Shown here: piece by piece, positions 3,277 to 23,022 of the stretch
Numbering within the stretch: the first letter of the stretch is position 1
Layout of the letters: every line of letters begins with the position of its first letter
From: Pseudomonas chlororaphis subsp. chlororaphis
Lineage (GTDB): Bacteria; Pseudomonadota; Gammaproteobacteria; Pseudomonadales; Pseudomonadaceae
Reading direction: 5' to 3'
DNA: 64,000 bases
Assembly (NCBI RefSeq): GCF_003945765.1
Contig: NZ_CP027712.1
Location: 5,704,001 to 5,768,000, forward strand
Position numbers and translations under genes: made by a program
Notes under the pieces: model-generated
The model's database searches: none
What the model saw: the letters and a program-made list of their open reading frames with translations, nothing else
What the model was told of the DNA's origin: nothing

Positions 3277-3524
3277 CTCGCCGATGGGACTCCTGGCCCT
3301 GCTGGCTGTTACGCCCCCCTTACTCCCTCCTATTTGCCAATGCTTTACGGACATCCCCTGCCCCATGCCCGCTGTCAGGCCAATGCCTGTTTTGCCTGAA
3401 GCGGTGGACACTTCATCGCGCCACGCGACAGGAGTACCCTGCGCACCGCTGACACTGTCAGATACTTGCATGCGTTCTGCTTAACTCTATGCTCTCGCTA
3501 CGCACGGACAGGAACCCGCCACAG

Positions 3525-4150
3525 ATGCAAAGGAAAGTAATACTCGTCGACGATCATCTGCTGACACTGATCGGCATCCGCGCCTCGCTCAGCGGCGACA
3601 GCACGTTGCAGATCGTCGGCGAGGCCCAGAATGTCGAAGGGCTGTTCCAGCTGTTGGCCGAACAGCCCTGCGATCTGGTCGTCACCGATCTGATGATGCC
3701 CCACAGCGAACAGGCCGACGGCATCCGTCTGATCGAACAGTTGCGCCGCCGTTACCCCCAGATCGCAGTCATCGTGGTGACCATGCTCAACAACCCGGCG
3801 CTGCTGGCCTCGATCCTCAAGCTGGGGGTCCAGGGGTTGATCAGCAAGCGCGGGGTACAAGGCGACCTGCAAAAGGCCATTCGCGCAAGCCAAGCCAAAC
3901 CCTTCGTCTCCCCGTCCATCCGGCATCTGTTCGACCCCGTGGAGCCTATGGCCGAGGTCGAACAACTGTCCCCCGCGAAGTCGAGGTGCTACGCCTCTAC
4001 GGCGCCGGGCTGTCGGTCAATGAAATAGCCACGCACCTCAATCGTTCCAAGCAGACCATCAGCAGCCAGAAGAGCAGCGCCATGCGCAAGCTGGGCCTGG
4101 ACAGCAACGCCAGCCTCTACCTGTACATCCAGGAAGTCGGGCTGGCCTGA
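3525..4150 (+). pseudogene. LuxR-type response regulator, frameshifted (EvgA/BvgA/TtsR-like)
   Basis: Cytosolic response regulator expected to pair with the kinase that starts five bases downstream. The receiver domain (residues ~1-120) is intact: acidic pocket VDDH, phospho-acceptor Asp55 in VVTDLMMP, and the conserved Lys in LISKRG. After LSP (about residue 150) the frame runs into unrelated sequence and stops at 4026-4028. Adding one C to the C-run at 3970-3974 restores REVEVLRLYGAGLSVNEIA and a LuxR helix-turn-helix of 58 residues ending at 4148-4150. The damage is therefore a single-base deletion in a homopolymer, either a real mutation or a sequencing error. Start chosen at ATG 3525 behind AGGAA; an ATG at 3489 is possible. 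Confidence 0.85.
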
Positions 4151-4154
4151 GACT

Positions 4155-7100
4155 ATGCCGAACCCTCCAGCCGGCCTGCCGCGCCTGATCCTCTGGATCA
4201 TGCTCTTGCTGACCAGTGTCGCGTCCCTGGGCGCCGCCGAGCCTGAGCCTGCGCCGCTGTCCCTGGCCACGCTGATGGCCATGCGTCAGACGTTGCCCCC
4301 TCGCCCGCTACGGGTCGCCGAAGTGAGCGCCTCCAACGAGCAACCCGAACCTCGTGGCAACGATGTGCTCAACCAGATCACCAACGACTACCTGGAACAC
4401 ATCAGCCAGTTTCTCGAACTGCCGATTCAACGGGTGCCCTACCCTTCGGTGGACAGTGCCATCGCCGCCCTGATCGCTGGGGACATCGATCTGATGCCCC
4501 GCGCCACCGAGTACGAAAGAAAACAATCTGGGTTCGTCTACAGCAAGCCCTACCTGGACAACGAGCCGATCATCGTCGGGCGCATCGCCGACAAGGACCT
4601 GTCCCCAGACCTGGCGGGCAAACGCGTGCTGGTTCCGGCCTACTATGTGCAGGCTGAAACAGTCGGAAAGGCCTATCCCAAGGCTGAACTGATCGTGATC
4701 AACAGCATTGTCGAAGGCCTGCAACGCCTGTCCGACGGCGGAGCCGACGCACTGATCGGCGATCAACTGCGCACCAATTTCTATATGCGCAGCCTGGCCA
4801 ACCTCAAGTTGCAGAACAAGTACGTCGCCAACCTGCCGGCCATGGGTTTCAGCTTCGCCGTCCGCGGGCATGAGGATAATCTGGTGCCCCTGATCAACGC
4901 CGCGCTGAAGACGGTTTCCCGGGAGCGCAAGCAAGAGATACTGCAGCACTGGGAACGCTCGCCCTGGCTGTTCGCGCCGACCGACTCCTTCGCCCTCAAC
5001 AGCGCGGAAGACAGCTGGCTCAAGCGTCTTCCTTCGCTGAACCTGATCGCCCACGAAATCCCCAATTACCTGTATCGCAAGGACGACGGCCAATGGGCCG
5101 GACTGGCGTTCAATGTGCTGCGCAGCCTGGCCGACGACTACCAGCTGCAACTGAACATCATCGACAGCCAATCCCCGGATATTGACCGCCAGCGCCTGGA
5201 ACGGGATGAGGCGCAAATCGCCCTATCGCTGGCACCGACTCCGGTCCGACAAAAGAGCCTGTTGTTCAGCGATGGCTTCGGCACCGAGTACTGGGCCTTC
5301 ATTACCCGCGAGGGCGCCAGTTCCCCCAGCTCGCTAGCGGCCCTGGAGGGCAGGCGCCTGGCGATCGCCGCCGGACATCCCCTGCAGCCTCTGCTCCAGA
5401 GCCGCTACCCGAGCATCGAACTGGTACTCACCGACCACTATTCCCAGGCCGTGCATCTGGTCGAACAGGGCATGGTCGACGCCACGCTGAACAGCGCCGC
5501 CGATGCCCAACTGCTGGACAACCCCCGGCTCCGGAGCGGCAAGCAGTTCCAGGCCCAGGCCGAGCCCCTGGTGTTCGCCGTATCGGCCAAGCACCCCGAA
5601 CTCCTGAGCATTCTCAACAAGCTCCTGTATTCGTTGAAAACTTCGGACGGCAATCAGGACCGCATCAGCATCCAGGCGCGGCCCGCCACCAAGGGTTCGC
5701 TCTGGGCCTACCTGCCGAGCTGGGTCTGGCAAAGCGCCGCGCTGGTCCTGGTGCTGGTGTTGCTGTCGTTTTACTGGAACTGGCGCCTGCGGATTCAGAT
5801 CCGCCAGCGGCGCGTCGCGCAGAATCAGCTCAAGGACCAACTGGCCTTCCAGTTCGCCTTGCTCAACGGCTTGCCCATCCCGCTTTACGTGCGTGACTTG
5901 CAAGGGCGCCTGAGCACCTGCAACCACGCTTATGAGCAGTTCTTCGGCCGGTCCCTGGACGAGATGCGCGGCACCACGCCGCAAGAGCAAGGCATCGCCC
6001 CACGCGCCCTGGCCCTGGATCTGGAGGAGCAGCACCAACGGCTGCTGGATAACCGCCAGTCGCAATTCCTCGACAGCGTGATCGAGGTCGATGGCCAGGC
6101 CCATCATATCTACCAATGGCTGGTGCCCTTCTACACCGCACTCGGCAAGCAGCAGGGCCTGCTGGGCGGCTGGATCGACATCAGCGTGCGCAAGCACCTG
6201 GAACACAAGCTGCTCGAAGCCCAGCAGCAGGCAATCGACGCCAGCGCGGCGAAAAGCCAGTTCCTCGCGACCATGAGCCATGAGCTGCGCACCCCGCTGA
6301 ACGCCATGGTTGGCCTGCTGGAGCTGGAAACCAGCGGCGCGTCCACCCCTTCGCAAAACCTCAGCATCGCCCAGCAGTCGGCGCAATCGATGATCGATCT
6401 GATCGGCAACATTCTCGATCTGGACAAGGTCGAGACCGGCCAGATGGAGCTGGTGCCCGGCCCCACCGACCTCGATCAACTATTGGCCAACTGCCTTGAG
6501 CTGTTCGCCGCGCAGGCCCGGGAAAAACACCTGGAGCTGAAGCTGCAACACCGCCTGCCCCCCGAGCGGCGCTACCAGGTGGACGCCCTGCGCCTGACGC
6601 AGATCCTTCACAACCTGTTGTCCAACGCCTTGAAGTTCACGAACCAGGGCTGGGTCGAACTGTCGGTCCAGGAGCTGGACTCGGGGCCTCGGCAAAGCCG
6701 CCTGATGTTCCATGTCAGCGACACCGGCATCGGCATCGCCGAGGATCAGCAGCCGCAGATTTTCGCGCCTTACCAGCAAGCCCACGCCGAGATCGCCCAC
6801 CTGCACGGCGGTTCCGGCCTGGGCCTGAGCATCTGCAAACAGCTGGTCGAGCTCATGGGCGGCAGCATCCGCCTCGCCAGTGCGCCGGACCAGGGTTGCC
6901 GGGTCAGCTTCGAACTGACCCTGCCCTGGCAACCGGACAAGGACCAGCCGCAGCATGCCCTTCAAGGCGCTACGGCGGTGGCCGGGTTGAATGTACTGAT
7001 CGTCGACGACGTCTCCACCAACGGCCTGGTGCTCGAACAGCAACTGCTCAGGCTCGGCCATCGCGGGACCTACGTCAGCAATGGCAAGGCGGCCTTGCAA

Positions 7101-7748
7101 GCCTGGGAGCAGGGCCAGTTCGATGTGCTGGTCACCGATTGCAACATGCCGCACATGGACGGCTACGCCCTGGCCCGCAGTGTCCGTGCCGCAGAACAGG
7201 CGTGCGGGCTGCCCAGGATCCCGATCATCGGCTACACCGCCCGCGCCCTGGCAGACGAAAAGCAGCGTTGCCAGGCGGCCGGCATGGACGACCTGATGAT
7301 CAAGCCCATCGTCCTCGAGCGCCTGCGGGAAATACTCGGCAAGCTGAAAGCGCCCGGGCTATCCAGTTCATCCCTCAACGCCCCCCTCACGCCGCCCCTC
7401 GCCCCAGCGCCTGACGAGGAGGCTGCCGCAACGTTCGACCTGACCTACCTGGAGGGCTTCCAGAGCGATCCGCAGCTCAAGGAGCGCTTGCTCCAGGAGC
7501 TGCGCCGGAACCTGGAGCAGGAGCGCGAGCTGCTGAGCGCCCCGCTGCCCGACCCGCCGGAGTTCCTCGAACAGTGGGTCCACCGGGTCAGCGGCCTGGC
7601 CTGCACAGTCGATTCGCCGGCGTTGATGCGGGCCTGCCTCGACCTGCAACGTGCGGCTCGTGGAAGCGAGCAGGACCTGGAGGCGCAACGCCACGCAGTG
7701 CTGTCGGTCATCGAACGCATGCTGCGCGATATCGAACGCCACGCCTGA
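4155..7748 (+). CDS. Hybrid sensor histidine kinase, EvgS/BvgS-like (TtsS-like)
   Basis: 1197-residue inner-membrane unorthodox kinase. Order: signal peptide (~1-28); two periplasmic venus-flytrap domains of the SBP_bac_3 type (~50-280 and ~290-510); one membrane segment (~524-545); a PAS domain (~560-685); HisKA with His709 in SHELRTPLN; an ATPase domain with DTGIGI and GGSGLGLSI boxes; a receiver domain with Asp995 in VTDCNMPHMDG; and a C-terminal Hpt domain with His1143 in WVHRVSG. All four phosphorelay residues are present. It follows the frameshifted regulator by four bases and precedes the LPMO and T2SS genes, a context like TtsS of the P. aeruginosa PA7 Txc system. The ligand is unknown; flytrap domains suggest a small molecule or an envelope cue. 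Confidence 0.93.
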   Translation: MPNPPAGLPRLILWIMLLLTSVASLGAAEPEPAPLSLATLMAMRQTLPPRPLRVAEVSASNEQPEPRGNDVLNQITNDYLEHISQFLELPIQRVPYPSVDSAIAALIAGDIDLMPRATEYERKQSGFVYSKPYLDNEPIIVGRIADKDLSPDLAGKRVLVPAYYVQAETVGKAYPKAELIVINSIVEGLQRLSDGGADALIGDQLRTNFYMRSLANLKLQNKYVANLPAMGFSFAVRGHEDNLVPLINAALKTVSRERKQEILQHWERSPWLFAPTDSFALNSAEDSWLKRLPSLNLIAHEIPNYLYRKDDGQWAGLAFNVLRSLADDYQLQLNIIDSQSPDIDRQRLERDEAQIALSLAPTPVRQKSLLFSDGFGTEYWAFITREGASSPSSLAALEGRRLAIAAGHPLQPLLQSRYPSIELVLTDHYSQAVHLVEQGMVDATLNSAADAQLLDNPRLRSGKQFQAQAEPLVFAVSAKHPELLSILNKLLYSLKTSDGNQDRISIQARPATKGSLWAYLPSWVWQSAALVLVLVLLSFYWNWRLRIQIRQRRVAQNQLKDQLAFQFALLNGLPIPLYVRDLQGRLSTCNHAYEQFFGRSLDEMRGTTPQEQGIAPRALALDLEEQHQRLLDNRQSQFLDSVIEVDGQAHHIYQWLVPFYTALGKQQGLLGGWIDISVRKHLEHKLLEAQQQAIDASAAKSQFLATMSHELRTPLNAMVGLLELETSGASTPSQNLSIAQQSAQSMIDLIGNILDLDKVETGQMELVPGPTDLDQLLANCLELFAAQAREKHLELKLQHRLPPERRYQVDALRLTQILHNLLSNALKFTNQGWVELSVQELDSGPRQSRLMFHVSDTGIGIAEDQQPQIFAPYQQAHAEIAHLHGGSGLGLSICKQLVELMGGSIRLASAPDQGCRVSFELTLPWQPDKDQPQHALQGATAVAGLNVLIVDDVSTNGLVLEQQLLRLGHRGTYVSNGKAALQAWEQGQFDVLVTDCNMPHMDGYALARSVRAAEQACGLPRIPIIGYTARALADEKQRCQAAGMDDLMIKPIVLERLREILGKLKAPGLSSSSLNAPLTPPLAPAPDEEAAATFDLTYLEGFQSDPQLKERLLQELRRNLEQERELLSAPLPDPPEFLEQWVHRVSGLACTVDSPALMRACLDLQRAARGSEQDLEAQRHAVLSVIERMLRDIERHA

Positions 7749-7777
7749 CCCGTCCCGGGCAGCCCTGAGCAACAATC

Positions 7778-7800
7778 CGGCCCTGGGCAACCCCAGGCCG
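7778..7800 (+). terminator. Stem-loop after the sensor kinase gene
   Basis: CGGCC and TGGG pair with CCCAGGCCG across a 4-nt loop, with one bulged C, 30 bases after the kinase stop. No T-tract follows, so termination is only possible. The rest of the 250-base gap before the LPMO gene shows no gene. Confidence 0.4.
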
Positions 7801-8001
7801 CCCTCCTGAAACATTTTGTTCCATTCCCTGGCTCGCCGTTTCGTACTCGTCTCATACAAGGCAAAAGCCCCGCTCGGCATCCTAGGCCCCCTTCGAAGCC
7901 GGGCGCCGCGGACCAGGAACACTCCAGGTCGACCCATTGGGTGGCCGGCATCGAAGAACTTAAAAAAAGACTCTTTCATATCCCTAATTCAAGGTGATTC
8001 G

Positions 8002-9495
8002 ATGCTTCATAACACCCGCGCCAGCGCCATGCGCAAGCTTCCGTTGGCCATCACCCTCGGCCTGGCTTCGCTGGCCAGCCAGCAAGCCTTCGCCCACGGT
8101 TATGTCGAAAGTCCGAAGTCCCGTGCCTTCATGTGCTCCGCCACCGGCGGCAACCTCAACCGCGATTGCGGCCCCGTCACTTACGAACCGCAGAGTGTCG
8201 AGTACTCGCCATCGGTCCAGCATCACTACCCCAAGGATTACTGCTCGGGCGACTTCACCCAATGCGGTCCGGCGAACGGCACCATCCCGGCGGGCGGCAT
8301 CACCAGCTTCTCGCAGCTCAACGAGCAGACGGCGACCCGCTGGCAGAAAACCACGATCAAGCCGGGCATGAATGAATTCACCTGGCACTACTCCGCCGGT
8401 CACGCCAGCGCCTACTACCAGTTCTACATCACCAAGAAAGACTGGAACCCGAACCAGCCGCTGACCCGCGACTCCTTCGAGATGACCCCGCTGCTCAATG
8501 AAAACGCCGGTGGCGTGCGTCCGCCGGCCGGTGGCAAGACCCAGCACAAGGTCAACATTCCTGCTGACCGCAGCGGTTATCACGTGATCCTGGCGACCTG
8601 GAAAATCGCCGACACCGCCGCCACCTTCTACCAGGCCATCGACGTCAACATCGACAACGATGGCGCACCGATTCCCGACTGGAAAATCCTCGGGGCCGTA
8701 CAGCCTGAACAACTGCAAATCGGCGACAAGGTCAGCACTCGCGTGTTCACCAATGCCGGCGAACAGCAGAACCGCCAGACCCGCCTGAACATCGAGACCG
8801 CCGAGCAGGCCAACGCCAACACCTGGCCGTTCCTGTTGGCGGAAAAGGTCAACAAGGCCAATGCCGGTTATGTGATGGGCGAGCTCAACGCCAACAACGA
8901 AGTCGTGCCCAACTACGGCAAGAACACCCTGTACGCCAAGAACAACAGCGACGTGGTGCGTGTGGAAATCCAGAAAGAGCAGCCGAGCATTCCTGGCGAG
9001 CTGAAACTTTCCGGCCTGCAGGCCGAGTACACCTTGAAGGACAACGCCACCGACCTGCACTTCAACGCCATTGCCCAGGGCGGCAAGTACACCATCAGCT
9101 CGACGGTCTTCAACGGCAAGAACGAAAGCATTGCTCACGTACAAGCCGAGCCTGGCAACAACACCCCGCACTTCTCCATCCCGCTGCGTAACGTCAGCGA
9201 AGGTGAGTACGACGTGGTGGTCGTGGCCAAGCCGGAGAAAGGCGAGCAGCTGCAACAAAGCCAGCGCATCACCCTGAAAGCCGAGGAAGTGGGCGGCGGC
9301 GGTGATTACGACTTCGTCTTCCCCAAAGGCCTGACCGGCTACAAGGCCGGCACCAAGGTCCTGGCCAAGGACGGCAACGTCTATGAATGCAAGCCGTTCC
9401 CTTACAGCGGCTACTGCATCCAGTGGAACGCTGGCGCCACTCAGTTCGAGCCTGGCGTGGGCAGCAACTGGAAGGACGCCTGGATTCGCAAGTAA
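8002..9495 (+). CDS. gbpA: GbpA-like chitin-binding lytic polysaccharide monooxygenase (AA10), CbpE-like
   Basis: 497-residue secreted protein. A Sec signal peptide ends ...SQQAFA, so the mature protein starts HGYVESP: the N-terminal His is the first ligand of the copper histidine brace of AA10 monooxygenases, which oxidatively cleave chitin. Order: AA10 domain (~30-215) with a second His in HYSAGHASAYYQF; GbpA middle domains (~220-420); and a C-terminal chitin-binding module (~450-497) rich in Trp, Tyr and Cys. An upstream in-frame extension to 7816 is rejected because it would bury the signal peptide; GATTCG ATG at 8002 is used. Location next to a T2SS and a TtsS-like kinase matches CbpE, the Txc substrate of P. 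aeruginosa PA7, so export by the adjacent machine is inferred. Confidence 0.93.
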   Translation: MLHNTRASAMRKLPLAITLGLASLASQQAFAHGYVESPKSRAFMCSATGGNLNRDCGPVTYEPQSVEYSPSVQHHYPKDYCSGDFTQCGPANGTIPAGGITSFSQLNEQTATRWQKTTIKPGMNEFTWHYSAGHASAYYQFYITKKDWNPNQPLTRDSFEMTPLLNENAGGVRPPAGGKTQHKVNIPADRSGYHVILATWKIADTAATFYQAIDVNIDNDGAPIPDWKILGAVQPEQLQIGDKVSTRVFTNAGEQQNRQTRLNIETAEQANANTWPFLLAEKVNKANAGYVMGELNANNEVVPNYGKNTLYAKNNSDVVRVEIQKEQPSIPGELKLSGLQAEYTLKDNATDLHFNAIAQGGKYTISSTVFNGKNESIAHVQAEPGNNTPHFSIPLRNVSEGEYDVVVVAKPEKGEQLQQSQRITLKAEEVGGGGDYDFVFPKGLTGYKAGTKVLAKDGNVYECKPFPYSGYCIQWNAGATQFEPGVGSNWKDAWIRK

Positions 9496-9558
9496 TCCAT
9501 AACCTGACCAACCGCAGCGTGGTGCCCCGGCACCGCGTTGCGGACCTTGGGAATCGAC

Positions 9559-10080
9559 ATGAATCACCCTCACTACTCAAGACCGCGCAGGCTGCTGCAC
9601 TGGCTGTTCGCCGCCGTTGTGCTGTGGGCCACGATCAGCGGCTATGCCAGCGCCCTGTTGCAGCCGCCAAGCTCGGTCCAACAGGCGATCGCCTTTATCA
9701 ATGTCTCGCTGACCACCCTGCTGGTGCCGCTGTTCGTCCTGCGGCTGTTCTACCTGGTGCGTCATCCCGCTCCGGCGGCGCCCGCCCATCAGAACGCGGC
9801 TGAGCGCAAGCTGGTGCATGCCGGGCACGCAGCCCTGCTGGTCACCCTCGGCACCGTGCTGTTCAGCGGCGTGCTGATGATGTCGCGCCCGATCGACCTG
9901 TTCGGCCTGCAGCTCCCGCAACCCTTGCAGGACCTGGCGGCCATCACCTTTTTCGAAGAGCTTCACCACTACAGCTGCATGGCCCTGGCCCTGCTGGTGG
10001 CCGGCCATATCGCCGCGGTGATCCTCCACCAATGGCGCGGGCAGAGCGTGCTCAGACGCATGCTGCCCAAACGCCCATGA
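9559..10080 (+). CDS. Cytochrome b561 family membrane protein
   Basis: 173-residue four-helix membrane protein of the prokaryotic cytochrome b561 (Ni/Fe-hydrogenase b-type-like) family, which carries haem b and moves electrons across or within the inner membrane. Candidate haem-ligand histidines are visible in RRLLHWLFAA, KLVHAGHAALLV and ELHHYSCMALALLVAGHIAA. The start ATG at 9559 lies 63 bases after the LPMO stop, and the 3' end overlaps gspC by four bases (ATGA), so it belongs to the secretion operon. Its presence between an LPMO and T2SS genes is unusual and suggests a redox role; the partner is unknown. Confidence 0.85.
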   Translation: MNHPHYSRPRRLLHWLFAAVVLWATISGYASALLQPPSSVQQAIAFINVSLTTLLVPLFVLRLFYLVRHPAPAAPAHQNAAERKLVHAGHAALLVTLGTVLFSGVLMMSRPIDLFGLQLPQPLQDLAAITFFEELHHYSCMALALLVAGHIAAVILHQWRGQSVLRRMLPKRP

Positions 10081-10628
10081 AAACGCTGCTCTCATGGCGC
10101 CCGCGCGGCGCCGGCCAGCGCTACCTGCTGCCCGTAAGCCTGGTCGCCCTGGGTCTCTGGCTGACCTGGCTCGGCCTCGACAGCTGGACCTACCGGCAAG
10201 TCGTGGCGGGCCAGCCGGTGCCGAGCGCGGTACCGAGCGCCAGCGCCGAACAGCGGCTGCCCGCGCCCCTGGACGATCGCAACATCGCCAGGGTGTTCGG
10301 CGCCGTGCCGGTCGAATTCGACAGCGCGCAGGCCAGCCTGCCGCTGGTCCTGCTCGCCAGCCTGCTGGGCAACCAGCCCGAACAATCCAGGGCCCTGATC
10401 CAGTACGCCGACAGCCGGGCCTTCTACTCCCCGGGCGAACGCCTGCCCGACGGTACGCTGCTCAAGAGTGTCAGCGCCGATCAGGTGGTGGTGCTGCGCA
10501 ACGGCCGTGAACAGAACCTGCTGCTACCCGGGCGCCAACTGCGCCTGCTCAGCCCCCAGACAACCCCACCGGAGGTCGCCGACCGAAAAGCCACGGCCCT
10601 TCTGCGAGCGATAGAGAACACACCATGA
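10077..10628 (+). CDS. gspC: Type II secretion protein GspC (short form)
   Basis: 183-residue bitopic inner-membrane protein that links the T2SS inner-membrane platform to the secretin. One membrane segment lies at ~17-38 (LLPVSLVALGLWLTWLGL), followed by a periplasmic homology region (~65-150: ARVFGAV, LPLVLLASLLG, SRAFYSPGERLPDG). It ends shortly after, with no room for the C-terminal PDZ or coiled-coil domain found in longer GspC proteins. ATG overlaps the cytochrome stop (ATGA), and its own stop overlaps the gspD start the same way, so the genes are translationally coupled. Confidence 0.88.
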   Translation: MKTLLSWRPRGAGQRYLLPVSLVALGLWLTWLGLDSWTYRQVVAGQPVPSAVPSASAEQRLPAPLDDRNIARVFGAVPVEFDSAQASLPLVLLASLLGNQPEQSRALIQYADSRAFYSPGERLPDGTLLKSVSADQVVVLRNGREQNLLLPGRQLRLLSPQTTPPEVADRKATALLRAIENTP

Positions 10629-12526
10629 AACTGTCCAAGATTGCAGGCGCCGTACTCAGCCTCGGCCTTCTTTTGAGTGCCCTGCCCAGTACCGCGGCCC
10701 TCACCACCCAGCGCCTGTGGACGCTGAACATGAAGGACGCCGAACTGCGCGACCTGGCCAGCGAAGTCGGTGAAATCACCGGCAAGACCCTGGTGGTCGA
10801 TGCCCGGCTGCAAGGCAAGGTCAGCGTGCAATCGTCCAGTGCGCTGGACAAGGACGGTATCTACTCGCTGTTCCTCAGCGTGCTGCGCAGCCAGGGTTTC
10901 GTCGCCCTGGACCAGGGCGACCGGGTGCTGATCGTGCCGGCGATGGAAGCCAAGACCAAATCCAGCGAGCAGTCCGGCGATGAGTTCGTGACCCGGGTCC
11001 TGGACCTGCGCAACGCCAACGCCGCGGAAATCTCCGGGGTGGTGCGCCCGCTGGTGAGCGACGACGCCTATGTCGCGCCCTCGGCCAGCTCCAACGCGCT
11101 GGTGGTTTCCGACAGCGCCAGCAACGTCGAGCGCATCCGCCAGGTGGTCAGCGAACTGGACCAGGCCGGCAACCGCTCGTTCAGCACCGTGGCGCTCAAG
11201 CATGCCTGGGCCAGCGATGTGGCCCGCACCCTGAACGAAAGCATCAGCCAGACGGGCAACGGCCCCAGCGACGCCAAGGCCGTGGGCGACGCCCGCAGCA
11301 ACCGGGTGATCCTCGCGGGTTCCGCCCAGGCCCGCCAGCGCATGGCCGATCTGGTCAGGGCCATCGACGTGCCGAGCAATGCCAATGACAGCGCGCGGGT
11401 GGTACGCCTGCACCACAGCGATGCGAAAAAACTCTCGAAGCTGCTCGACGGCATCGGCAAGCGCCTGGAAGACGGCAATCGCGGTGGCGGCGAAGGCAAG
11501 GGCAGCGGCAACTCGATACTGGTGAGCGCCGACGAAAGCCAGAACGCCCTGGTGCTGATGGCCGACCCGGCGCAACTGAGCATGCTCGACAAAGTCATCA
11601 CCCAGCTGGACCAGCCACGGGCCCAGGTACTGGTGGAAGCGGCCATCGTCGAAGTCAGCGGCGACATCAACGAAGCCCTCGGCGTGCAATGGGCGGCGCG
11701 CGCCGGCAACGTCACCGGCGGCACCAACTTCAGTGGCACCGGCCTGTCGATCGGTACCCTGCTGGGGAATGGCAAGGACAAGAACATCACCCTGCCGGAC
11801 GGCGCCATCATCGGCATCGGCACCAGCAATTTCGGCGCGCTGGTCACCGCCCTGTCCAGCGACTCGAAGAACAACCTGCTGTCCACCCCGAGCCTGCTGA
11901 CCCTGGACAACGAAGCGGCGGAAATCCTCGTCGGCCAGAACGTGCCGTTCCAGACCGGCTCGTATACCACCGACACCGCTGGCGCCAGCAACCCCTTCAC
12001 CACCGTGGAGCGCCAGGACGTCGGCGTGACCCTCAAGGTGACGCCGCACATCAACGAGGGCAACACCCTGCGCCTGAAAGTCGAGCAGGAAAGCTCGGAG
12101 CTGGCCAGCGCCCCGCCCGGCATCACCACCAGCGACGTGATCACCAACAAGCGCTCGGTGAAAAGCACCATCCTCGCCGACGACGGGCAGATCATCGTGC
12201 TCGGCGGCCTGATCAAGGACAACGTCAAGACCCAGGTCAGCAAGGTGCCGGTGCTGGGCAGCATTCCCCTGCTCGGCCGGCTGTTCACCAGCACCAAGGA
12301 CGTCACCGAAAAGACCAACCTGATGGTCTTCCTGCGGCCGACCCTGGTGCGCGGCAGCGCCGATGCCGTCAACGTCAGCCAGCGCAAGTACAACGACCTG
12401 CGCAAGCTGCGCGCCAACGGCGACAGCCGCAGCGGCCTGGCCCTGCCCGCCGACTCGCGCCAGCTGTTCGATGCCGCGCCGCAGGATGGGACCCTCGACA
12501 TTCGCGCCAGAGAGCCACGCCGATGA
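10625..12526 (+). CDS. gspD: Type II secretion secretin GspD
   Basis: 633-residue outer-membrane secretin that forms the exit channel. Signal peptide ~1-25; N0 domain (~30-100, [20 protein letters not shown]); N1-N3 repeats (~110-370, including [10 protein letters not shown] and [20 protein letters not shown]); C-terminal secretin domain (~390-600) with the signature around [14 protein letters not shown] near residue 540. No pilotin gene is visible nearby. Overlaps gspC and gspE by ATGA junctions. Confidence 0.95.
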
Positions 12527-14007
12527 ACCCGGTCGCGCGCCTGCCCTTTGGTTTCGCCAAGCGCCATGGGGTCCTGCTGGAGCCCCAGGAGAGCGGCCTG
12601 CGGCTTTACTGCCGGGCCGACACGCCGGTGGAAATCCTCGCCGAGATCCGCCGCTGCCACGGCCCGCTGCTGGGCCACCGGATACTCGACGCCGAGGGTT
12701 TCGCCGAACTGCTGGCCGAGCACTATCGCGATGGCCGCGACGACGCCATGCAAATGGCCGAGGGCCTGGGCGACCAGATCGCCGGCCAGGACGACCTGGC
12801 CAGCCTGGCCGAGCAACTGCCGCAGATCACCGACCTGCTGGAGCAGGAAGATGACGCGCCGATCATTCGCCTGATCAACGCGATCCTCGGCGAAGCGGTG
12901 AAGGTCAAGGCTTCGGATATCCACCTGGAAACCTTCGAGCAGCACCTGTCCGTGCGCCTGCGGGTCGACGGCCTGCTGCGCGAAGTGCTGCGCCCGCGCC
13001 GGGAACTGGCGGGCCTGCTGGTGTCGCGGATCAAGGTCATGTCCAAGCTCGACATCGCCGAGAAGCGCATCCCCCAGGACGGCCGCATCGCCCTGCGCAT
13101 CGGCGGCCATGAAGTGGACGTGCGGGTCTCCACCCTGCCTTCGGCCTACGGCGAGCGGGTGGTCATGCGCCTGCTCGACAAACAGGCCGGGCGCCTGAAC
13201 CTGGGGCGGCTGGGCATGGCCGAGGCGATCCGCGACAAGCTGGAAGACGCCCTGCTGCGCCCCCACGGCATCCTGCTGGTCACCGGCCCCACCGGTTCCG
13301 GCAAGACCACCACGTTGTATGCCGGGCTCAGCAGCCTGAACAACCAGACGCGCAACATCCTGACCATCGAAGACCCGGTGGAATACCACCTGGCCGGCAT
13401 CGGCCAGACCCAGGTCAACACCAAGGTCGACATGACCTTCGCCCGTGGCCTGCGCGCCATCCTGCGCCAGGACCCGGACGTGGTCATGGTCGGCGAGATC
13501 CGTGACCGGGAAACCGCCGACATCGCCGTGCAAGCCTCCCTCACCGGCCACCTGGTGCTGTCCACCCTGCACACCAACAGCGCCATCGGCGCCGTCACCC
13601 GCCTGCTGGACATGGGCATCGAGCCCTTCCTGCTGTGCACCTCGCTGCTCGGCGTGGTCGCCCAGCGCCTGGTGCGGGTGCTCTGCGGCGATTGCAAGAG
13701 CGCCGCGCCGGCCGACGCCGCGGCCTGCCACCAGGTGCACCTCGACCCGCAACAGGCGCCGCTGCTCTATCACCCGGTCGGCTGCCCGGCCTGCCAGCAC
13801 AGCGGCTATCGCGGCCGCCAGGGCATCTACGAACTGGTGCTGTTCGACGAACCGCTGCGCCAGTTGATCCACGAAGGGGCTGGCGAAGCCGCCTTGACCC
13901 AGTACGCGCGCCAGCATGCCCACAGCCTGTTCGCCGACGGCCGGGACAAGGTGCTGCAAGGCGTCACCAGCGTCGAAGAACTGCTACGTGTAACCCGGGA
14001 GCACTGA
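12523..14007 (+). CDS. gspE: Type II secretion ATPase GspE
   Basis: 494-residue cytoplasmic hexameric ATPase that powers pseudopilus assembly. The N-terminal domain (~1-110) contacts GspL. The core holds Walker [10 protein letters not shown] (residues 255-263), the Asp and His boxes, and Walker B-like [16 protein letters not shown] zinc-binding tetracysteine loop is visible (CGDC ... CPAC). ATG at 12523 overlaps the gspD stop; the open frame extends further upstream but only inside gspD. Complete and normal in length. Confidence 0.95.
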
Positions 14008-14009
14008 CC

Positions 14010-15224
14010 GTGGCCGCCTACGAATACCTCGCCATGTGCAACGCCGGGCGCAAGACCCGCGGCGTGCAGGAAGCCGACAGCGCGCGGCAGGTCCGCCAGC
14101 TGCTGCGCGAACGCAACCTGATCGCCCTGCAGGTCAAGCCGGCCCGCGGGCAACAGGACCGCTCCGGCGCCACACTGACCAGCAGCCAACGCCTCAGCCC
14201 GGCGCAACTGGCCTTGCTCACCCGCCAGCTGGCGACCCTGGTCCAGGCCGCTCTGCCCCTGGAAGAAGTGCTGGCCGCGGTCGCCGCGCAATGCAGCAAG
14301 CGCGCGCAGCAAAGCATGATGCTGGCGATCCGCGCACGGGTGCTGGAAGGCCATGACCTGGCCCGAGCCATGGGCGAATACCCGCGCGCCTTCACCTCGA
14401 TGTACCGGGCCACGGTGGCCGCCGGCGAACGCGCCGGCCATCTGGCCCAGATACTGATGCAACTGGCCGACTACACCGAGGCCCGGCATGCCGCCCGCCA
14501 GCAGCTGCAACTGGCCATGCTGTACCCGAGCATCCTGCTGCTGGCGGCCTTCGGCATCGTCGGCTTCCTGCTCAGTTTCGTGGTGCCGGATGTGGTCAAG
14601 GTGTTCATCGACAGTGGCCAGCAACTGCCGGTGCTGACCCGCGGCCTGATCGCCACCAGCGACTTCGCCCGGGACTACGGCCTGCTCCTGCTGCTGATGC
14701 TCGGCAGCCTCGCCGCCGGCCTGCGCGTGGCCCTGCGCAAGCCCGCCCTGGCCATGCGCTGGCATCAGGCCCAGCTGCGCTTGCCGGTGATCGGGCGGGT
14801 CATCCAGGCCAGCAACAGCACCCGTTTTGTCAGCACCCTGGCGATTCTCGGACGCAGCGGCGTGCCACTTGTTGATGCTCTGGAGATTTCCGCCGAAGTG
14901 GTCGCCAACCAGCAGATTCGTACTCGTATGAAAGACGTGGCGCGCGCCGTGCGCGAAGGTAGCGGGCTGACCCGGGCCCTGGAACAGAGCGGCGATTTCC
15001 CGCCGATGATGCTGTACATGATCGCCAGTGGCGAACGCTCGGGGGAACTGGACGGCATGCTCGAACGTGCCGCCCACCAGCAGCAGACCCAGCTGTCCAA
15101 CGGCATCGCCATGCTGGTCGGGCTGTTCGAGCCGGCGATGCTGGTGTTCATGGGCGCCAGCGTGCTGGTGATCGTCCTGGCGATCCTGATGCCCATTCTC
15201 AACCTCAACCAACTCATCACCTGA
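14010..15224 (+). CDS. gspF: Type II secretion inner-membrane platform protein GspF
   Basis: 404-residue polytopic platform protein that contacts GspE and GspL. It has two T2SSF domains (~70-190 and ~275-395). Membrane segments are visible at LYPSILLLAAFGIVGFLLSF, YGLLLLLMLGSLAAGL and MLVFMGASVLVIVLAILMPIL. The start is GTG at 14010, two bases after the gspE stop; the product begins (M)AAYEYLAMCNAG. The frame stays open further upstream only because it shadows gspE. Confidence 0.94.
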   Translation: MAAYEYLAMCNAGRKTRGVQEADSARQVRQLLRERNLIALQVKPARGQQDRSGATLTSSQRLSPAQLALLTRQLATLVQAALPLEEVLAAVAAQCSKRAQQSMMLAIRARVLEGHDLARAMGEYPRAFTSMYRATVAAGERAGHLAQILMQLADYTEARHAARQQLQLAMLYPSILLLAAFGIVGFLLSFVVPDVVKVFIDSGQQLPVLTRGLIATSDFARDYGLLLLLMLGSLAAGLRVALRKPALAMRWHQAQLRLPVIGRVIQASNSTRFVSTLAILGRSGVPLVDALEISAEVVANQQIRTRMKDVARAVREGSGLTRALEQSGDFPPMMLYMIASGERSGELDGMLERAAHQQQTQLSNGIAMLVGLFEPAMLVFMGASVLVIVLAILMPILNLNQLIT

Positions 15225-15236
15225 AGAGCACACAAC

Positions 15237-15671
15237 ATGCGCAACCCTTCCCGCCAACGCGGCTTCACCCTGATCGAGATCATGGTGGTCGTGGTGATTC
15301 TCGGTGTCCTGGCCGCCCTGGTGGTCCCGCAGATCATGAGCCGTCCGGACCAGGCCAAGGTCACCGCCGCCCGCAGCGACATCAAGGCCGTGGCCACCGC
15401 CCTGGAAATCTACAAGCTCGACAACCATCACTACCCCTCGACCCAGCAGGGCCTGGAAGCCCTGGTGAAGAAACCGGCGGGCATGCCGGCGGCCCTCAAC
15501 TGGAACCCCGACGGCTACCTCAAGCGCCTGCCCAAGGACCCCTGGGGCAACCCTTACCAGTTCCTCGCCCCGGGTCGCGAAGGCTCGGCCTACGACCTGT
15601 ATTCCTTCGGTGCCGACGGCCGCAACGGCGGCGACGGCACCAACGCCGACATCGGCAACTGGGAGCCTTGA
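15237..15671 (+). CDS. gspG: Major pseudopilin GspG
   Basis: 144-residue major pseudopilin that forms the periplasmic piston. A short positive leader (MRNPSRQRG) precedes the prepilin peptidase site G|FTLIE and a 20-residue hydrophobic helix. The C-terminal GspG domain contains YPSTQQGLEALV, LPKDPWGNPYQF and a Gly/Asp-rich calcium-site region (GADGRNGGDG). No prepilin peptidase gene is in the cluster, so processing must rely on a peptidase encoded elsewhere, presumably PilD. Confidence 0.96.
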   Translation: MRNPSRQRGFTLIEIMVVVVILGVLAALVVPQIMSRPDQAKVTAARSDIKAVATALEIYKLDNHHYPSTQQGLEALVKKPAGMPAALNWNPDGYLKRLPKDPWGNPYQFLAPGREGSAYDLYSFGADGRNGGDGTNADIGNWEP

Positions 15672-15672
15672 A

Positions 15673-16155
15673 GTGCGCAAGCCAATGGCGGGTTTCACCC
15701 TGCTGGAGCTGCTGGTGGTCATGCTGATCATCGGCTTGCTGGCCGGCATGGTCGGGCTGGTCCAGAGCGACTCGGGCGGGCAGAAGGCCCGGCGCGAGGC
15801 CGAGCGCCTGCAAAACCTCATTGGCCTGCTGCGCGAAGACGCGGTGTTGAACAACCTCAATCACGGCCTGCGCCTGGCGCCGGACCACTACGCAGTGCTG
15901 AGCCTCGACCGCGGCGGCCAGTGGCAGGCCGACAAACGCTTCAAGGAACACCGGCTGCCCGGCGAGCTGCGCCTGAACCTGCAGGAGCCACCAGGCCCAA
16001 ATAAAGGCCTGGGCCAGGGCAAGGAGCCGCAACTCTGGGTGCTGGCCAACGACCAGATCTCGCCCTTCAGCCTGCAGCTGGAGTACCGCCAGCAACCGCT
16101 GCTGTCGCTGTCCAGCGACGGGGTCGAGGAGGTGCGTCTTGCCCCGGTGCAATGA
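15673..16155 (+). CDS. gspH: Minor pseudopilin GspH
   Basis: 160-residue minor pseudopilin starting at GTG 15673, one base after the gspG stop; an ATG at 15685 (MAGFTLLE) is an alternative. The prepilin site G|FTLLELLVV and the hydrophobic helix are followed by a GspH-type domain (EAERLQNLIGLLREDAVLNN). Its 3' end overlaps gspI by 17 bases, which places the gspI ribosome-binding site inside gspH. Confidence 0.9.
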   Translation: MRKPMAGFTLLELLVVMLIIGLLAGMVGLVQSDSGGQKARREAERLQNLIGLLREDAVLNNLNHGLRLAPDHYAVLSLDRGGQWQADKRFKEHRLPGELRLNLQEPPGPNKGLGQGKEPQLWVLANDQISPFSLQLEYRQQPLLSLSSDGVEEVRLAPVQ

Positions 16156-16513
16156 ACAGGCGGGCTTCACCCTGCTGGAAGTGATGGTCGCCCTGGCCAT
16201 CTTCGCCGTGCTGTCGCTGTCGCTCTACAGCGCCACCGAACACCTGATCGGCAACAACGGCGGCCTCAGCGAACGAACCCTGGCGCAATGGCTGGCGGAC
16301 AACCGCCTGAACGAACTGCGCGCCGGCATGCGCCAGGCCCAGAGCCAGCACCAGGAACCGATCCGCTTCGCCGGGCGCGACTGGCTGCTGACCAGCGAAA
16401 CCGCCGCGGCGCCCGACCCGCGTCTGCTGAAGATCGTGCTCGAAGTCTCCACCGACGCGCCCATACCCCGGCAGCGCGCGCGCCTGGCCGGTTACCTGGA
16501 GGCCCGCCCATGA
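16139..16513 (+). CDS. gspI: Minor pseudopilin GspI
   Basis: 124-residue minor pseudopilin; GspI nucleates the tip complex with J and K. Leader (M)PRCNEQAG, cleavage site G|FTLLEVMVALAIFAVLSL. No ATG or GTG lies in frame before the cleavage site. TTG at 16139 is chosen because a strong GAGGAGG (16126-16132) precedes it by six bases, inside the gspH coding region. The stop overlaps the gspJ start (ATGA). Confidence 0.88.
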   Translation: MPRCNEQAGFTLLEVMVALAIFAVLSLSLYSATEHLIGNNGGLSERTLAQWLADNRLNELRAGMRQAQSQHQEPIRFAGRDWLLTSETAAAPDPRLLKIVLEVSTDAPIPRQRARLAGYLEARP

Positions 16514-17112
16514 AACGCCGGCAACAGGGCTTCACCCTGCTCGAAGTGCTGATCGCCATGGCCCTGTTCAGCCTGCTCGGCCTGGCCTGCTATCAACTGC
16601 TCGAACGCATGATGCACACCGACCAGCGGATTCATCAGCACGAACTGCAACTGCGGCGCCTGCAACGCGCGGTGGGCATCTTCGAACGTGACCTGGCCCA
16701 GGCCATCGCCTACCCGGTCAACGGCAGTTCGACGCGCCAGGCCCTGATCGGCGAGCCCGGGCGCATCCAGCTGGTGCGGGGCGGCTGGAGCAATCCCTTG
16801 CAGCAGGCACGCAACGACCTGCTGCTGGTCACCTATCGCTGGAGCGACAACCAATGGCTGCGCGAGTACCGCAGCCCGGTGGACGGTCCCGACCTGTCCG
16901 GCACTGCCGCGCAACAACTGCTGCTCGATGGCGTCCGCCTCGAACGCCTGCGCTACATCGACGACCAGGGTCAGGCCCATTCCAACTGGCCCGTCGGCCA
17001 GGCGCCATTGAGCCTGCCCCAGGCCATCGAGCTGGAACTCGACGCTCCGGGTTATCCCGGCCTGCGGCGGGTAATCCTGCTACCGGGCTTCAAGGGGCTG
17101 GACCATGGTTAA
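16510..17112 (+). CDS. gspJ: Minor pseudopilin GspJ
   Basis: 200-residue minor pseudopilin of the tip complex. Leader MKRRQQG, site G|FTLLEVLIAMALFSLLGLACY, then the GspJ domain (RRLQRAVGIFERDLAQAI, RNDLLLVTYRWSDNQWLREYR). ATGA overlap with gspI and an 8-base overlap with gspK mark tight coupling. Confidence 0.93.
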   Translation: MKRRQQGFTLLEVLIAMALFSLLGLACYQLLERMMHTDQRIHQHELQLRRLQRAVGIFERDLAQAIAYPVNGSSTRQALIGEPGRIQLVRGGWSNPLQQARNDLLLVTYRWSDNQWLREYRSPVDGPDLSGTAAQQLLLDGVRLERLRYIDDQGQAHSNWPVGQAPLSLPQAIELELDAPGYPGLRRVILLPGFKGLDHG

Positions 17113-17977
17113 GGCTTGTAGACAACGGGGCATCGCGCTGATCAGCGTGCTGTTGATCACCTCCCTGGCGACCCTGATCGTCAGTGACATGCTGGCCCGC
17201 CAGCGCCTGAGCCTGATCGGCAGCTCCAACCAGCTGTTGCAGCAACAACTGTGGCAACTGGCGCTCAGTGGCGAAGCCTGGGCCCGTGGCCAACTGCGCG
17301 ATGACTGGCGCGATGAGCCGGAACCCAAGCGCGTGCACCTGGGCCAACGCTGGGCCCAAAGCACGCCGACCTTCGACATAGACGGCGGGCGTATCCGCAT
17401 CCAGCTGCAAGACCTCGGCGCGCGCTTCAACCTCGGCACCTTGCGCACGCCCAACGACCGCATCAGTCGTGTGCGCTACCAGCGTTTGCTCAAGGAACTC
17501 GACCTGCCGCCCCACGACCCCACGCGCCTGCCGCCGGTCCGTGGTTTCGACGGCAAGCCGCTGGCCTGGAACGACAGCAGCGAATTGATGCGCCTGAAAG
17601 GCGTCGACACAGCGGTCATGGAACGCCTGCGGCCCTGGGTCAGAACCACGCCGGGGGCGCTGAACCTCAACACCGCCCCGGCCGAACAGCTGGCCAGCCT
17701 GGGCCAGCTCGACCTGGCCCAGGCCACCGCCCTGGTGCAGGCGCGTCCCGCCGATGGCTACAAGACGGTGCAGGAGTTTCTCGACGCCCCCGTGCTGAAA
17801 CAGCACGAGATCAGCAGCCAGGGGCTCGATGTCAGCAGCCGCTATTTCCAGGCGCTGCTGGATGTCGAACTGGGCGACCGCCAATTGCGCCTGATCAGCC
17901 GCCTGCGCATCGAGCAGGACGGTCAGGTCAGCGTACTGCAGCGCACCCTCGCCGCCCCTTCCCGTTTTCCGGAGTAA
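17105..17977 (+). CDS. gspK: Minor pseudopilin GspK
   Basis: 290-residue large minor pseudopilin that caps the tip. Leader MVKACRQRG, site G|IALISVLLITSLATLIV. As usual for GspK, the Glu at +5 of other pseudopilins is absent. The inserted alpha domain follows (LMRLKGVDTAVMERLRPWV, LNLNTAPAEQLASL). Starts inside the end of gspJ; gspL starts five bases after its stop. Confidence 0.93.
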   Translation: MVKACRQRGIALISVLLITSLATLIVSDMLARQRLSLIGSSNQLLQQQLWQLALSGEAWARGQLRDDWRDEPEPKRVHLGQRWAQSTPTFDIDGGRIRIQLQDLGARFNLGTLRTPNDRISRVRYQRLLKELDLPPHDPTRLPPVRGFDGKPLAWNDSSELMRLKGVDTAVMERLRPWVRTTPGALNLNTAPAEQLASLGQLDLAQATALVQARPADGYKTVQEFLDAPVLKQHEISSQGLDVSSRYFQALLDVELGDRQLRLISRLRIEQDGQVSVLQRTLAAPSRFPE

Positions 17978-17982
17978 ACCCC

Positions 17983-19065
17983 ATGCAAGCCTGGCTTTAC
18001 CTCGCCACAGTGAATGCGGACGACGACTCGCCCGTCACCTGGTGGCAAACCAACAGCGAGCCGGTGCACGGCACGCTGCAACAGGCGGCGGTGCTGGCCG
18101 GCCAGCGCCTGACCCTGCTGTTGCCGGCGGAAATCGCCAGCCATCACCGCTTCGACGTACCGCCGCGCAGCGGCCGCTGGTTGCAGCAAGCCATCCATTC
18201 GGTGCTGGAAGAACGGCTGCTGGACGACCCCGAGCAGTTGCACCTGGCCCGTGGGCCGTTGCAGGCGCGGCGGCACTGTCGCCTGTTCGCCCTGCAACGG
18301 CAGTGGCTGGAGCAACTGCTGGAACGACTGGCCAGTCATGGCCTGACGGCCGAGCGCATTCATGTCGATGCCGACTGCCTGCCGGACAGCCAGGCCCTGG
18401 CCCTGCGCTGCCACGACCGCTGGCTGATCGGCGGGGCCTGCCAGCAACGCCTGGCGCTCGACGACCAGGCCCTCGAAGAACTGGCCCCGCTGCTGCCCGA
18501 CACCCTGCAACGCAGCGAGGAAACGCCCTGGTCGCTGTTGGCCCAGGGCAGCGCGCAGGCCATCGATCTGCGCCAGGGGGCATTCGCCCTGCGCAGCCCG
18601 TCGCGCACGCCATGGCGGGCGCTGCTGGCGATCCTGGCCATCGCCTGCGGCGCTCAAGTGGCCCAGGACGTGGGTCATCGCTGGTTGCTGCAACACAAGG
18701 CCGCCGAGGTGACCGAGGCCAGCCTGGAACTCTGGCGCCAACGCTTCCCCGACGAGCCCCGGGTGATCGACCTTGCCCGCCAGGTCCAGGCCCGTGCCCA
18801 GCAGGCCGGCCAACCCCGGCAAAGCCTGGCGCGCCGGCTCGACAGCCTGGCCAGCCAATGGACCGGCAGCGATGGCGGCGATACGCGAATCCGCCGGCTG
18901 GACTACCAACAGGCGCAAGGCTGGACCCTGCAAGTCAACGCGCCGGATTTCTCCACCCTCGAACGCCTGCGCGAAGCCCTCGCGCAGCAGGGCGCGAATG
19001 TGCAGGCCGACTCGGCCGTGCTCGCTCCCGACGGGGTCAGCGCCCGCCTGAAAATCACGGACTAA
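17983..19065 (+). CDS. gspL: Type II secretion assembly protein GspL
   Basis: 360-residue bitopic protein that recruits the ATPase GspE. An actin-like cytoplasmic domain (~1-200, with VLEERLLDDPEQLHLA) is followed by one membrane segment (~209-226, ALLAILAIACGAQVAQDV) and a periplasmic ferredoxin-like domain (~270-360). Four bases separate gspK and gspL and three separate gspL and gspM. Confidence 0.9.
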   Translation: MQAWLYLATVNADDDSPVTWWQTNSEPVHGTLQQAAVLAGQRLTLLLPAEIASHHRFDVPPRSGRWLQQAIHSVLEERLLDDPEQLHLARGPLQARRHCRLFALQRQWLEQLLERLASHGLTAERIHVDADCLPDSQALALRCHDRWLIGGACQQRLALDDQALEELAPLLPDTLQRSEETPWSLLAQGSAQAIDLRQGAFALRSPSRTPWRALLAILAIACGAQVAQDVGHRWLLQHKAAEVTEASLELWRQRFPDEPRVIDLARQVQARAQQAGQPRQSLARRLDSLASQWTGSDGGDTRIRRLDYQQAQGWTLQVNAPDFSTLERLREALAQQGANVQADSAVLAPDGVSARLKITD

Positions 19066-19068
19066 CCC

Positions 19069-19539
19069 ATGACCACCCTTTTCAATCGTTACTCGAACCG
19101 CTGGCAACAGCTACCGGCCCGCGATCGCCTGGCCCTGAAGTTGCTCAGCCTGTTTCTGGCCGTGACGCTGTTCTGGACCCTGCTCTGGAGTCCTCAGCGC
19201 CAGGCCCTGCGCCAGGCTGAACAGCAGTTCCAGGAGGCCCTGCAGTTGCAAACCGACCTGCTCAAACTCCCTTCGTCCACCCAGGCCCGCGGCCCGCAGG
19301 CCAACGGCCGAACCCTGGCCGGCCTGATCACCGCCAGCACGGCCGCGGCCAACCTGAGCATCGAACGCATGGACAGCGAAGAATCCGGACGCCTCAATCT
19401 CAACCTCGGCGGCGCGCTGCAAGACCTGCTGACCTGGCTGGACGACGTGGAAAACCAGGGCGTCAACCTGGTGTCGCTGCAGCTGGAGGTCGACCCTCAG
19501 GCCCTGGTCCAGGCCCGCCTGACCCTGGAGGCCAACTGA
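19069..19539 (+). CDS. gspM: Type II secretion assembly protein GspM
   Basis: 156-residue bitopic partner of GspL. Short cytoplasmic N terminus, membrane segment ~24-40 (LKLLSLFLAVTLFWTLLW), coiled coil (~45-75) and a small periplasmic domain (~85-156). Last gene of the cluster: no gspN, gspO or pilotin follows, and the next gene converges on it. Confidence 0.9.
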   Translation: MTTLFNRYSNRWQQLPARDRLALKLLSLFLAVTLFWTLLWSPQRQALRQAEQQFQEALQLQTDLLKLPSSTQARGPQANGRTLAGLITASTAAANLSIERMDSEESGRLNLNLGGALQDLLTWLDDVENQGVNLVSLQLEVDPQALVQARLTLEAN

Positions 19540-19543: not shown

Positions 19544-19561
19544 GCCCGCCGCTCAGCGGGC
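19544..19561. terminator. Stem-loop between gspM and the convergent MOSC gene
   Basis: GCCCGC (19544-19549) pairs with GCGGGC (19556-19561) over a 6-nt loop, right after the gspM stop and reaching into the last codons of the convergent MOSC gene. It may act on both transcripts; there is no clear T-run. Confidence 0.45.
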
Positions 19562-20269
19562 CGACTCCTCATCGACCCGCTCAGTGCCCAGCAGGCGCGG
19601 GCCCCAATCCTCGACCGCCGCCTGCTCGACCCGGCGCTCCAGGGTGCGGCGCCACGAAGGCACCAGCGGCAACTCCAGGCACAGACGAATCTCCTCCAGC
19701 GCCACCTCGCGGGAAAACAGCACCGCGCTCAAGCGCGACAGCGGCCACTGCTCGAACGGGCGCTCGACCTGCTGCAACACGTCCCCGGCGCTCAGGCTGC
19801 CCGCCTCCAGCACCCGGTAATACCAGCCGGTGCGCCCGCTCTGCTGGACCCGCAGTGACATGTCTTTCACGGCAAAGCGGTCATTGAGTTTCCAGCACGG
19901 CATGCGGCCCTGGGACACCTCCAGCAACACGCTGCCGACCCGGACCCGGTCGCCCAGGCAGACGTTCTGCTCGGTCCAGCCGTGGCTGCTGAAGTTCTCG
20001 CCAAAGGCGCCCGGCTGCTCCAGCAAGGCGTGCGGCCCCAACTCGGCGGCCCAGGCGGCGTAATGCTCGCGGGGATAGTGATGAATGGCTTTCTCAGTGC
20101 CGCCATGCACCCGCAGGTCGCCCTGCTCGTCTTCCAGCAGGCCCAGGGGACCGACCTGCAGGCTGCCGGTGCGCGGGGTCTTGGCGATCGCGCTCATGGA
20201 CCCCGGCCGGCTGTAGGCCACGGCGCGGCCAGTCAACAGGGCATCGAGGGTTATACGCTCAGGGGTCAT
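19553..20269 (-). CDS. MOSC domain protein, YiiM-like
   Basis: 238-residue cytosolic MOSC-fold protein. YiiM relatives reduce N-hydroxylated compounds using a molybdenum cofactor. The MOSC core (~30-170) contains the conserved VHGGTEKAIHHYP, GAFGENF and the candidate Mo-ligand Cys in SQGRMPCWKLN; a C-terminal 3-alpha domain follows. ATG at 20269. Convergent with gspM; no operon partner is evident, and the substrate is unknown. Confidence 0.88.
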   Translation of the reverse strand: MTPERITLDALLTGRAVAYSRPGSMSAIAKTPRTGSLQVGPLGLLEDEQGDLRVHGGTEKAIHHYPREHYAAWAAELGPHALLEQPGAFGENFSSHGWTEQNVCLGDRVRVGSVLLEVSQGRMPCWKLNDRFAVKDMSLRVQQSGRTGWYYRVLEAGSLSAGDVLQQVERPFEQWPLSRLSAVLFSREVALEEIRLCLELPLVPSWRRTLERRVEQAAVEDWGPRLLGTERVDEESAR

Positions 20270-22178: not shown

Positions 22179-22364
22179 ATGAGCGCACCAGCCATTCTCT
22201 ACGACTACCTGGACCAGACTGCCGCCTTCAATGCCGACGGCCGGATCAACACCACTGTCGTCACCGTTCGCTTCGGCACAGTCCCCAGCGAATGGCTTCA
22301 CCTCGATGCCACCGATGCCCCTACCAGATCTTGCAGGTGCCAAGCCGGTACAAGTCCTCTATAA
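22179..22364 (+). other. Short open frame, possibly a gene remnant at the left edge of the phenazine locus
   Basis: Starts MSAPAILYDYLDQTAAFN. Its first ~46 codons have the C/G third positions typical of genuine Pseudomonas genes, but there is no ribosome-binding site. The coding character stops where the lux-type box of phzI begins (22321). It could be a small gene or the cut end of a gene displaced by the phenazine locus. Family not recognised. Confidence 0.3.
22321..22338 (+). promoter_or_regulatory. phz box (lux-type operator) of phzI
   Basis: CTACCAGATCTTGCAGGT is an imperfect palindrome. Read on the other strand it differs at one position from the operator in front of phzA over the core CTRCAAGATCTGGTAG. 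The TATAAA at 22360-22365 places the box centre near -42, the usual position for activation by a LuxR-type protein, here PhzR. Confidence 0.85.
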
Positions 22365-22401
22365 AACTGCACTCCCTTCATCCCTAAGGAAAACTTCAGT
22401 A

Positions 22402-22992: not shown

Positions 22993-23022
22993 TACAGGCC
23001 GAGTCGTCCTTCTTGAAGACCC

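Follow-up and report, generated by a model that had tools for sequence, protein, structure and literature searches.

A Txc type II secretion module with a split regulator gene in Pseudomonas chlororaphis

The 64,000 nucleotides of Pseudomonas chlororaphis subsp. chlororaphis analysed here (the window) carry a Txc type II secretion module, a further member of a known system. The account that we favour, with a probability of roughly 0.85, is that of a Txc module that would be controlled by a TtsSR pair through a conserved upstream element and that would export the LPMO encoded beside it, the regulator gene being split in this assembly. This extends the range of Txc from P. paraeruginosa and outlying P. 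aeruginosa to P. chlororaphis-type and other Pseudomonas.

ORF calling together with Pfam and NCBIfam models places the module at 3489-19539 of the window, on the forward strand, where a regulator region is followed by genes for a kinase, an LPMO and a cytochrome b561, and then by gspC to gspM. This order and the coordinates had been proposed by an initial annotation, and ORF calling and Pfam bear them out. The gspC to gspM set stands in one run: gspC (10077..10628; Pfam T2SSC at 39.6 bits with a cut-off of 27, NCBIfam gspC at 25.1 bits, below its cut-off of 101.6), the secretin gene gspD (10625..12526; Pfam, type_II_gspD at 521 bits and a tree), the ATPase gene gspE (12523..14007; Pfam, type_II_gspE at 680 bits and a tree), gspF (14010..15224; T2SSF, the start codon chosen among alternatives), gspG (15237..15671; T2SSG), gspH (15685..16155; typeII_sec_gspH at 90.5 bits, cut-off 80), gspI (16139..16513; T2SSI, a TTG start being assumed), gspJ (16510..17112; T2SSJ), gspK (17105..17977; T2SSK and T2SS_GspK), gspL (17983..19065; T2SSL and GspL_C) and gspM (19069..19539; T2SSM). 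The run is as tight as had been claimed, with neighbours from the cytochrome gene onward overlapping or at most 13 bases apart. It had also been said to lack gspN, gspO and a pilotin gene. This holds for the run itself, which leaves no space for them; on the side of the genome the check covered prepilin peptidases, three matches to which were found, all outside the module. A scan of 7700-10120 gave no sigma-70 consensus promoter and no terminator on the forward strand, while two terminator-like sites on the reverse strand equal the number in shuffled sequences. GC content was tried as a mark of an island and is uninformative (65.6% in the module, 63.6% in the window).

The identification as Txc/TtsSR/CbpE is carried by gene order, by sequence identity and by phylogeny. 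An alignment of five LPMOs was scanned over named genomes and returned 71 loci including that of P. paraeruginosa PA7, 41 of which were mapped gene by gene. The PA7 locus (island RGP69, L091) has the identical order of response regulator, kinase, LPMO, b561 and gspC to gspM, and its products are 74% (GspD), 83% (GspE), 73% (LPMO), 56% (b561) and 54% (kinase, over residues 40-1195) identical to those of the window. A difference from PA7 is the split regulator of the window. The two trees that had been proposed as a check, quick trees with SH-aLRT support only and with some long-branched rows, comprise 51 rows for GspE, with one short row dropped, and 54 for GspD, with L192 dropped. The GspE of the window groups with that of PA7 Txc and 21 other Txc rows (SH-aLRT 97), and its GspD with that of PA7 Txc and 22 other Txc rows (SH-aLRT 100). 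The Xcp system of PA7 (L189), the Hxc system of PA7 (L191) and the Hxc-like system of the present genome (L075) fall outside the Txc clade in both trees, so the clustering with Xcp or Hxc that would have spoken against the identification is not seen.

These other systems share the type II secretion gene set and differ in further ways. We take L189 to be Xcp by its gene arrangement, and its GspD matches PDB 5wln, presumably XcpQ, from end to end. That GspD is 51% identical to the one studied here, its gene diverges from gspE to gspM, and no LPMO match lies within the 20 kb examined. L191 and L075 are likewise taken to be Hxc and Hxc-like by gene arrangement rather than by annotation, with GspE at 53-56% identity. 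As for the published system, three papers state that TtsSR of PA7 controls txc and cbpE and that CbpE is exported by Txc (PMC12369383, PMC8623646, PMC12051241). The last of these also places the Txc island of P. aeruginosa clades 3, 4 and 5 just downstream of ttsR and describes TtsR as close to RocA3 and PA3714 (PMC12051241).

The initial annotation had called the module complete, with an intact two-component system. This is not borne out, the regulator gene being split in this assembly. The TtsR-like response regulator appears as a receiver-only ORF (3525..4028, forward strand; Response_reg, 3.4e-21), in which the receiver extends to about 3968 and which ends without an HTH. The LuxR-type HTH lies in another frame (3968..4150, forward strand; GerE, 3.6e-12 over 3950-4150) that ends at 4150, immediately ahead of the kinase start. 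A scan for codon usage, for which five genes of the window (four of them from the module) served as the training set, puts a frame shift between the two parts: the first is read as coding up to 3980, and the second from 3968 onward. This is the sole such switch in the module, and both parts keep their coding bias. We checked the regulator frame in 28 related loci; 8 held no receiver/HTH pair, and in all 20 with both parts these lie in a single ORF. Intact copies are thus found in relatives, and since these carry one continuous reading frame, programmed frameshifting is rejected. In P. chlororaphis relatives with a receiver identity of 95-96% the regulators are proteins of 208 amino acids, and one regulator record at NCBI (P0002, 158 amino acids) carries the label partial. 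A search of 57 relatives for near copies of the regulator DNA returned only short or distant matches outside the window.

The break is seen in one assembly only and could be genuine or an assembly error. We give even odds to a sequencing or assembly error that would leave the module fully intact. The uninterrupted frame in all 20 relatives, the coding bias kept by both parts, the retention of the candidate target element described below and the soundness of every other gene of the module would all fit such an error. The same lack of any other frame break in the module also counts against it, as do kinase genes split in L105, L107 and L109, all of them drafts, and the frame breaks in txcY, txcS and ttsS reported for three P. 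paraeruginosa strains (PMC12369383). Elsewhere in this genome (G000:C1:1232884-1238194) a second kinase, 29% identical to the sensor half of TtsS, lies near a stretch with a 67% DNA match to the regulator; our guess is that the two are possibly a Roc-like pair.

The TtsS-like hybrid kinase (4155..7748, forward strand; 1197 amino acids) is of the EvgS/BvgS type. Pfam finds in it two flytrap domains (SBP_bac_3), a PAS domain, HisKA (H709), HATPase and a receiver (D995), and these are followed by an Hpt-like C-terminus (H1143). Tandem flytraps, PAS, histidine kinase and receiver are common to BvgS, EvgS and this protein, whose flytraps match BvgS and EvgS in the PDB at 9.1e-41 and 5.7e-22. With 344 bits against an equivalog cut-off of 1995 it is not EvgS, and a kinase tree agrees with the TtsS assignment. 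Among 23 aligned rows H709 is kept in 21, and D995 and H1143 in 20 each, the remainder being gaps. Because no Hpt model of Pfam reached 1e-3, the Hpt-like end is assigned by position and residue only.

The flytraps had been suggested to sense chitin breakdown products, a suggestion that finds no support here. In the PDB, the solved structures related to them belong to BvgS, EvgS and proteins that bind amino acids, and both flytraps are missing from four related kinases of the TtsS type (L092, L107, L113 and L222, the last from P. alcaligenes MRY13-0052). In these four a signal-like stretch is followed almost at once by a membrane span; L107 and L113 are broken at other points too. On the kinase tree the absence needs three changes, two of them forced by starred branches, which suggests that flytraps were lost about three times among TtsS kinases. 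They look dispensable in TtsS, since four such kinases do without them, and it is a fair guess that they restrain the kinase. Kinases with and without flytraps offer natural material on the role of BvgS-type sensors.

Upstream of the LPMO gene, comparative genomics points to a candidate TtsR operator (7841..7856, forward strand). The conserved block first emerged from an alignment of the kinase-LPMO gaps of four close relatives. With up to 3 mismatches allowed, its 16-nt core, TCGTACTCGTCCCATG, occurs in 21 of 22 Txc loci and also in L057, at a distance of 126-168 nt upstream from the start of the LPMO gene; the copy in the window has 2 mismatches. Of the 13 additional LPMO copies, 12 are preceded by the core. 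None of the 11 sister operons (see below) and none of the 5 lone LPMO genes has it, and it turns up in 1 of 971 random 320-nt stretches taken from 12 of the same loci. A -10-like hexamer (7878..7883, forward strand) follows at a fixed spacing, as seen from column conservation in 31 instances: position 39 is A in 31/31, and positions 42 and 43 are C and T in 30/31 each. This count leaves out L105 and L057, which are near-copies, as well as L101 and one copy of L104, and only the downstream conservation is independent, because the instances were chosen by their match to the core.

The distribution of the element also follows that of TtsS to some extent. The core is missing in strain R5, where the kinase half matches at only 40-41% and the flytraps find no match. 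Searches for TtsS in the genomes of R5, L093, L094 and L112 gave matches of 29-41% only, and none to the sensor half in G120 (the genome of L097). The element is retained in P. otitidis (L096) and P. alcaligenes MRY13-0052 (L098), whose TtsSR genes lie elsewhere in the genome. This co-variation depends on just 2 changes on the LPMO tree, and common descent could account for much of it; the genome of L110 lay outside the TtsS search. We therefore regard the co-variation as suggestive, not proof, of a TtsR operator. The element could instead be a core-promoter or alternative-sigma element, since the spacing to the hexamer is invariant in the 31 instances, as in a two-element promoter. We think this unlikely: the element does not precede lone Txc-type LPMO genes, including four nested in the Txc LPMO clade, and is missing from R5; searches of the R5, L093, L094, L112 and G120 genomes did not reveal TtsS; and 16 nt exceeds the length of the usual sigma elements. 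The candidate operator gives a directly testable site for TtsR. We found no TtsR site in the accessible parts of the literature consulted, a set outside which Cadoret 2014 and a 2021 DAP-seq paper fall. A shortened form of the element has a second exact match in the genome, on the minus strand at 4250989.

The LPMO (8002..9495, forward strand; 497 amino acids; LPMO_10, GbpA_2 and GbpA_D3) is a CbpE/GbpA-type AA10 enzyme encoded beside the secretion genes, and scores 593.6 bits with the GbpA equivalog of NCBIfam (cut-off 481). H32, the expected mature start after a signal peptide whose cleavage site was placed by eye, and H134 are invariant in 5 sequences, and we take them to be the N-terminal and second histidines of the AA10 copper brace. 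Two small LPMO matches lie elsewhere in the genome (G000:C1:3789611-3790225, reverse strand, and 2281006-2281503, forward strand), each adjoining a GH18 match (3788749-3789483 and 2281657-2282385, respectively).

The cytochrome b561 (9559..10080, forward strand; 173 amino acids) belongs to PF01292 (Ni_hydr_CYTB, 3.3e-24; 86.1 bits, cut-off 30.1) and matches PDB 5oc0, 'Cytochrome b561', at 7.8e-7. It falls short of the E. coli CybB type, with 32.7 bits for PRK11513 (cut-off 170). Its possible haem ligands are H14 and H90, kept in 29/29 rows, and H136, H150 and H157, kept in 28/29. The gene is not essential, because it is missing from several loci, namely 3 of 23 Txc loci (L098, L104 and L057, the latter two near-identical) and 3 of 11 sister LPMO-T2SS loci. 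E. coli b561 oxidises superoxide, and we would suggest, weakly, that the present protein probably deals with redox chemistry or superoxide around the LPMO as this passes through the periplasm. That b561 recurs between LPMO and secretion genes raises the question of how the LPMO is handled before secretion. In P. protegens FD6 (L104, 4588-11542) four consecutive LPMO genes, three of them with the candidate element, stand before gspC with no b561.

Taken as a mechanism, these features would work as follows. In relatives with an intact regulator, the domains and conserved residues suggest that TtsS would relay phosphate to TtsR by way of its own receiver and Hpt-like end. Comparative genomics suggests in turn that TtsR would bind the element, which lies some 126-168 nt ahead of the LPMO start, and would activate the promoter for LPMO, b561 and gspC to gspM. 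Led by its signal peptide, the LPMO would cross the inner membrane, fold and leave through this T2SS, as published for CbpE of PA7; outside, it would cleave chitin oxidatively, judging by its family. If the split is real, TtsR would be unable to activate the module by the usual route. Weighing against the account as a whole, the element and TtsS may co-vary by descent and the split may have arisen in assembly; b561 is not universal, and GspC is below the NCBIfam cut-off.

The cargo deserves separate consideration. The genome has five secretin matches, and only the present GspD and the Hxc-like one match GspD at 1e-60. With only two systems at this level, Txc may export further proteins in this strain. 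The general exporter of P. aeruginosa is Xcp, and no third, Xcp-type system was seen in this genome, which would leave room for the module to be a general-purpose T2SS that exports several enzymes, the LPMO being merely the linked one. We find this doubtful, as the LPMO gene precedes the machine in all 23 loci of the Txc GspD clade, a count that is biased because most loci were found through the LPMO, and as Txc of PA7 is said, by the title of Cadoret et al. 2014, to direct the specific secretion of CbpE.

We surveyed 199 Pseudomonas genomes, the present one included, with one representative per species and many drafts. Three species besides P. chlororaphis have a Txc-level LPMO (61-64% identity) beside a Txc-level GspD (68-73%), and G120 has a Txc-type LPMO (64%) and no Txc GspD. 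A further 43 species encode a full-length LPMO at 36-42% identity. In 42 of these (the exception is G109) the distance from that gene to one for a GspD of 45-53% identity is 0.6 to 1.3 kb, so that an LPMO gene beside a T2SS of this second kind occurs in 42 of the 199 species. In the eleven such sister operons examined (L060-L070) the LPMO gene is directly ahead of the secretion genes, with b561 between in 8, and identities to the window are 44-52% for GspD and 33-40% for the LPMO. A TtsSR pair lies beside none of the eleven, L061 and L070 giving partial kinase matches only. GspD supports the sister relation of these operons to Txc (97); GspE leaves it open. Within the Txc clade, three loci (L096, L098 and L101) have a remote TtsSR or none that was found, and the pair therefore does not define the secretion machine. 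L093, L094, L097 and L110 hold Txc-type LPMO genes with no adjacent T2SS, kinase or element, and form one clade within the Txc LPMOs.

We offer, quite tentatively, a broader reading in which LPMO, b561 and T2SS would form an export-and-redox unit across Pseudomonas, with b561 serving the LPMO before export, TtsR having taken control of one branch by way of a conserved bipartite promoter, and TtsS having repeatedly shed its flytraps. If true, such repeated shedding would mean that flytraps restrain, rather than drive, the kinase.

The insertion place differs from that in PA7, where L091 has no ychF/Pth flank. In both the window and strain PCL1601 the module and a MOSC/YiiM-like gene (19553..20269, reverse strand), which sits between gspM and an MFS gene, are placed between ychF and that MFS gene. 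We compared the ychF neighbourhood in 9 of 12 other genomes: ychF and the MFS gene are directly adjacent in 6 of the 9 and 2.4 kb apart in one, and two have no MFS match nearby. The ychF flank is shared by only L088 and L089 among 28 loci tested. To the right of the module, at 22231-23763, LuxI-like and LuxR-like genes were read by eye, and these presumably resemble the phenazine locus of P. chlororaphis.
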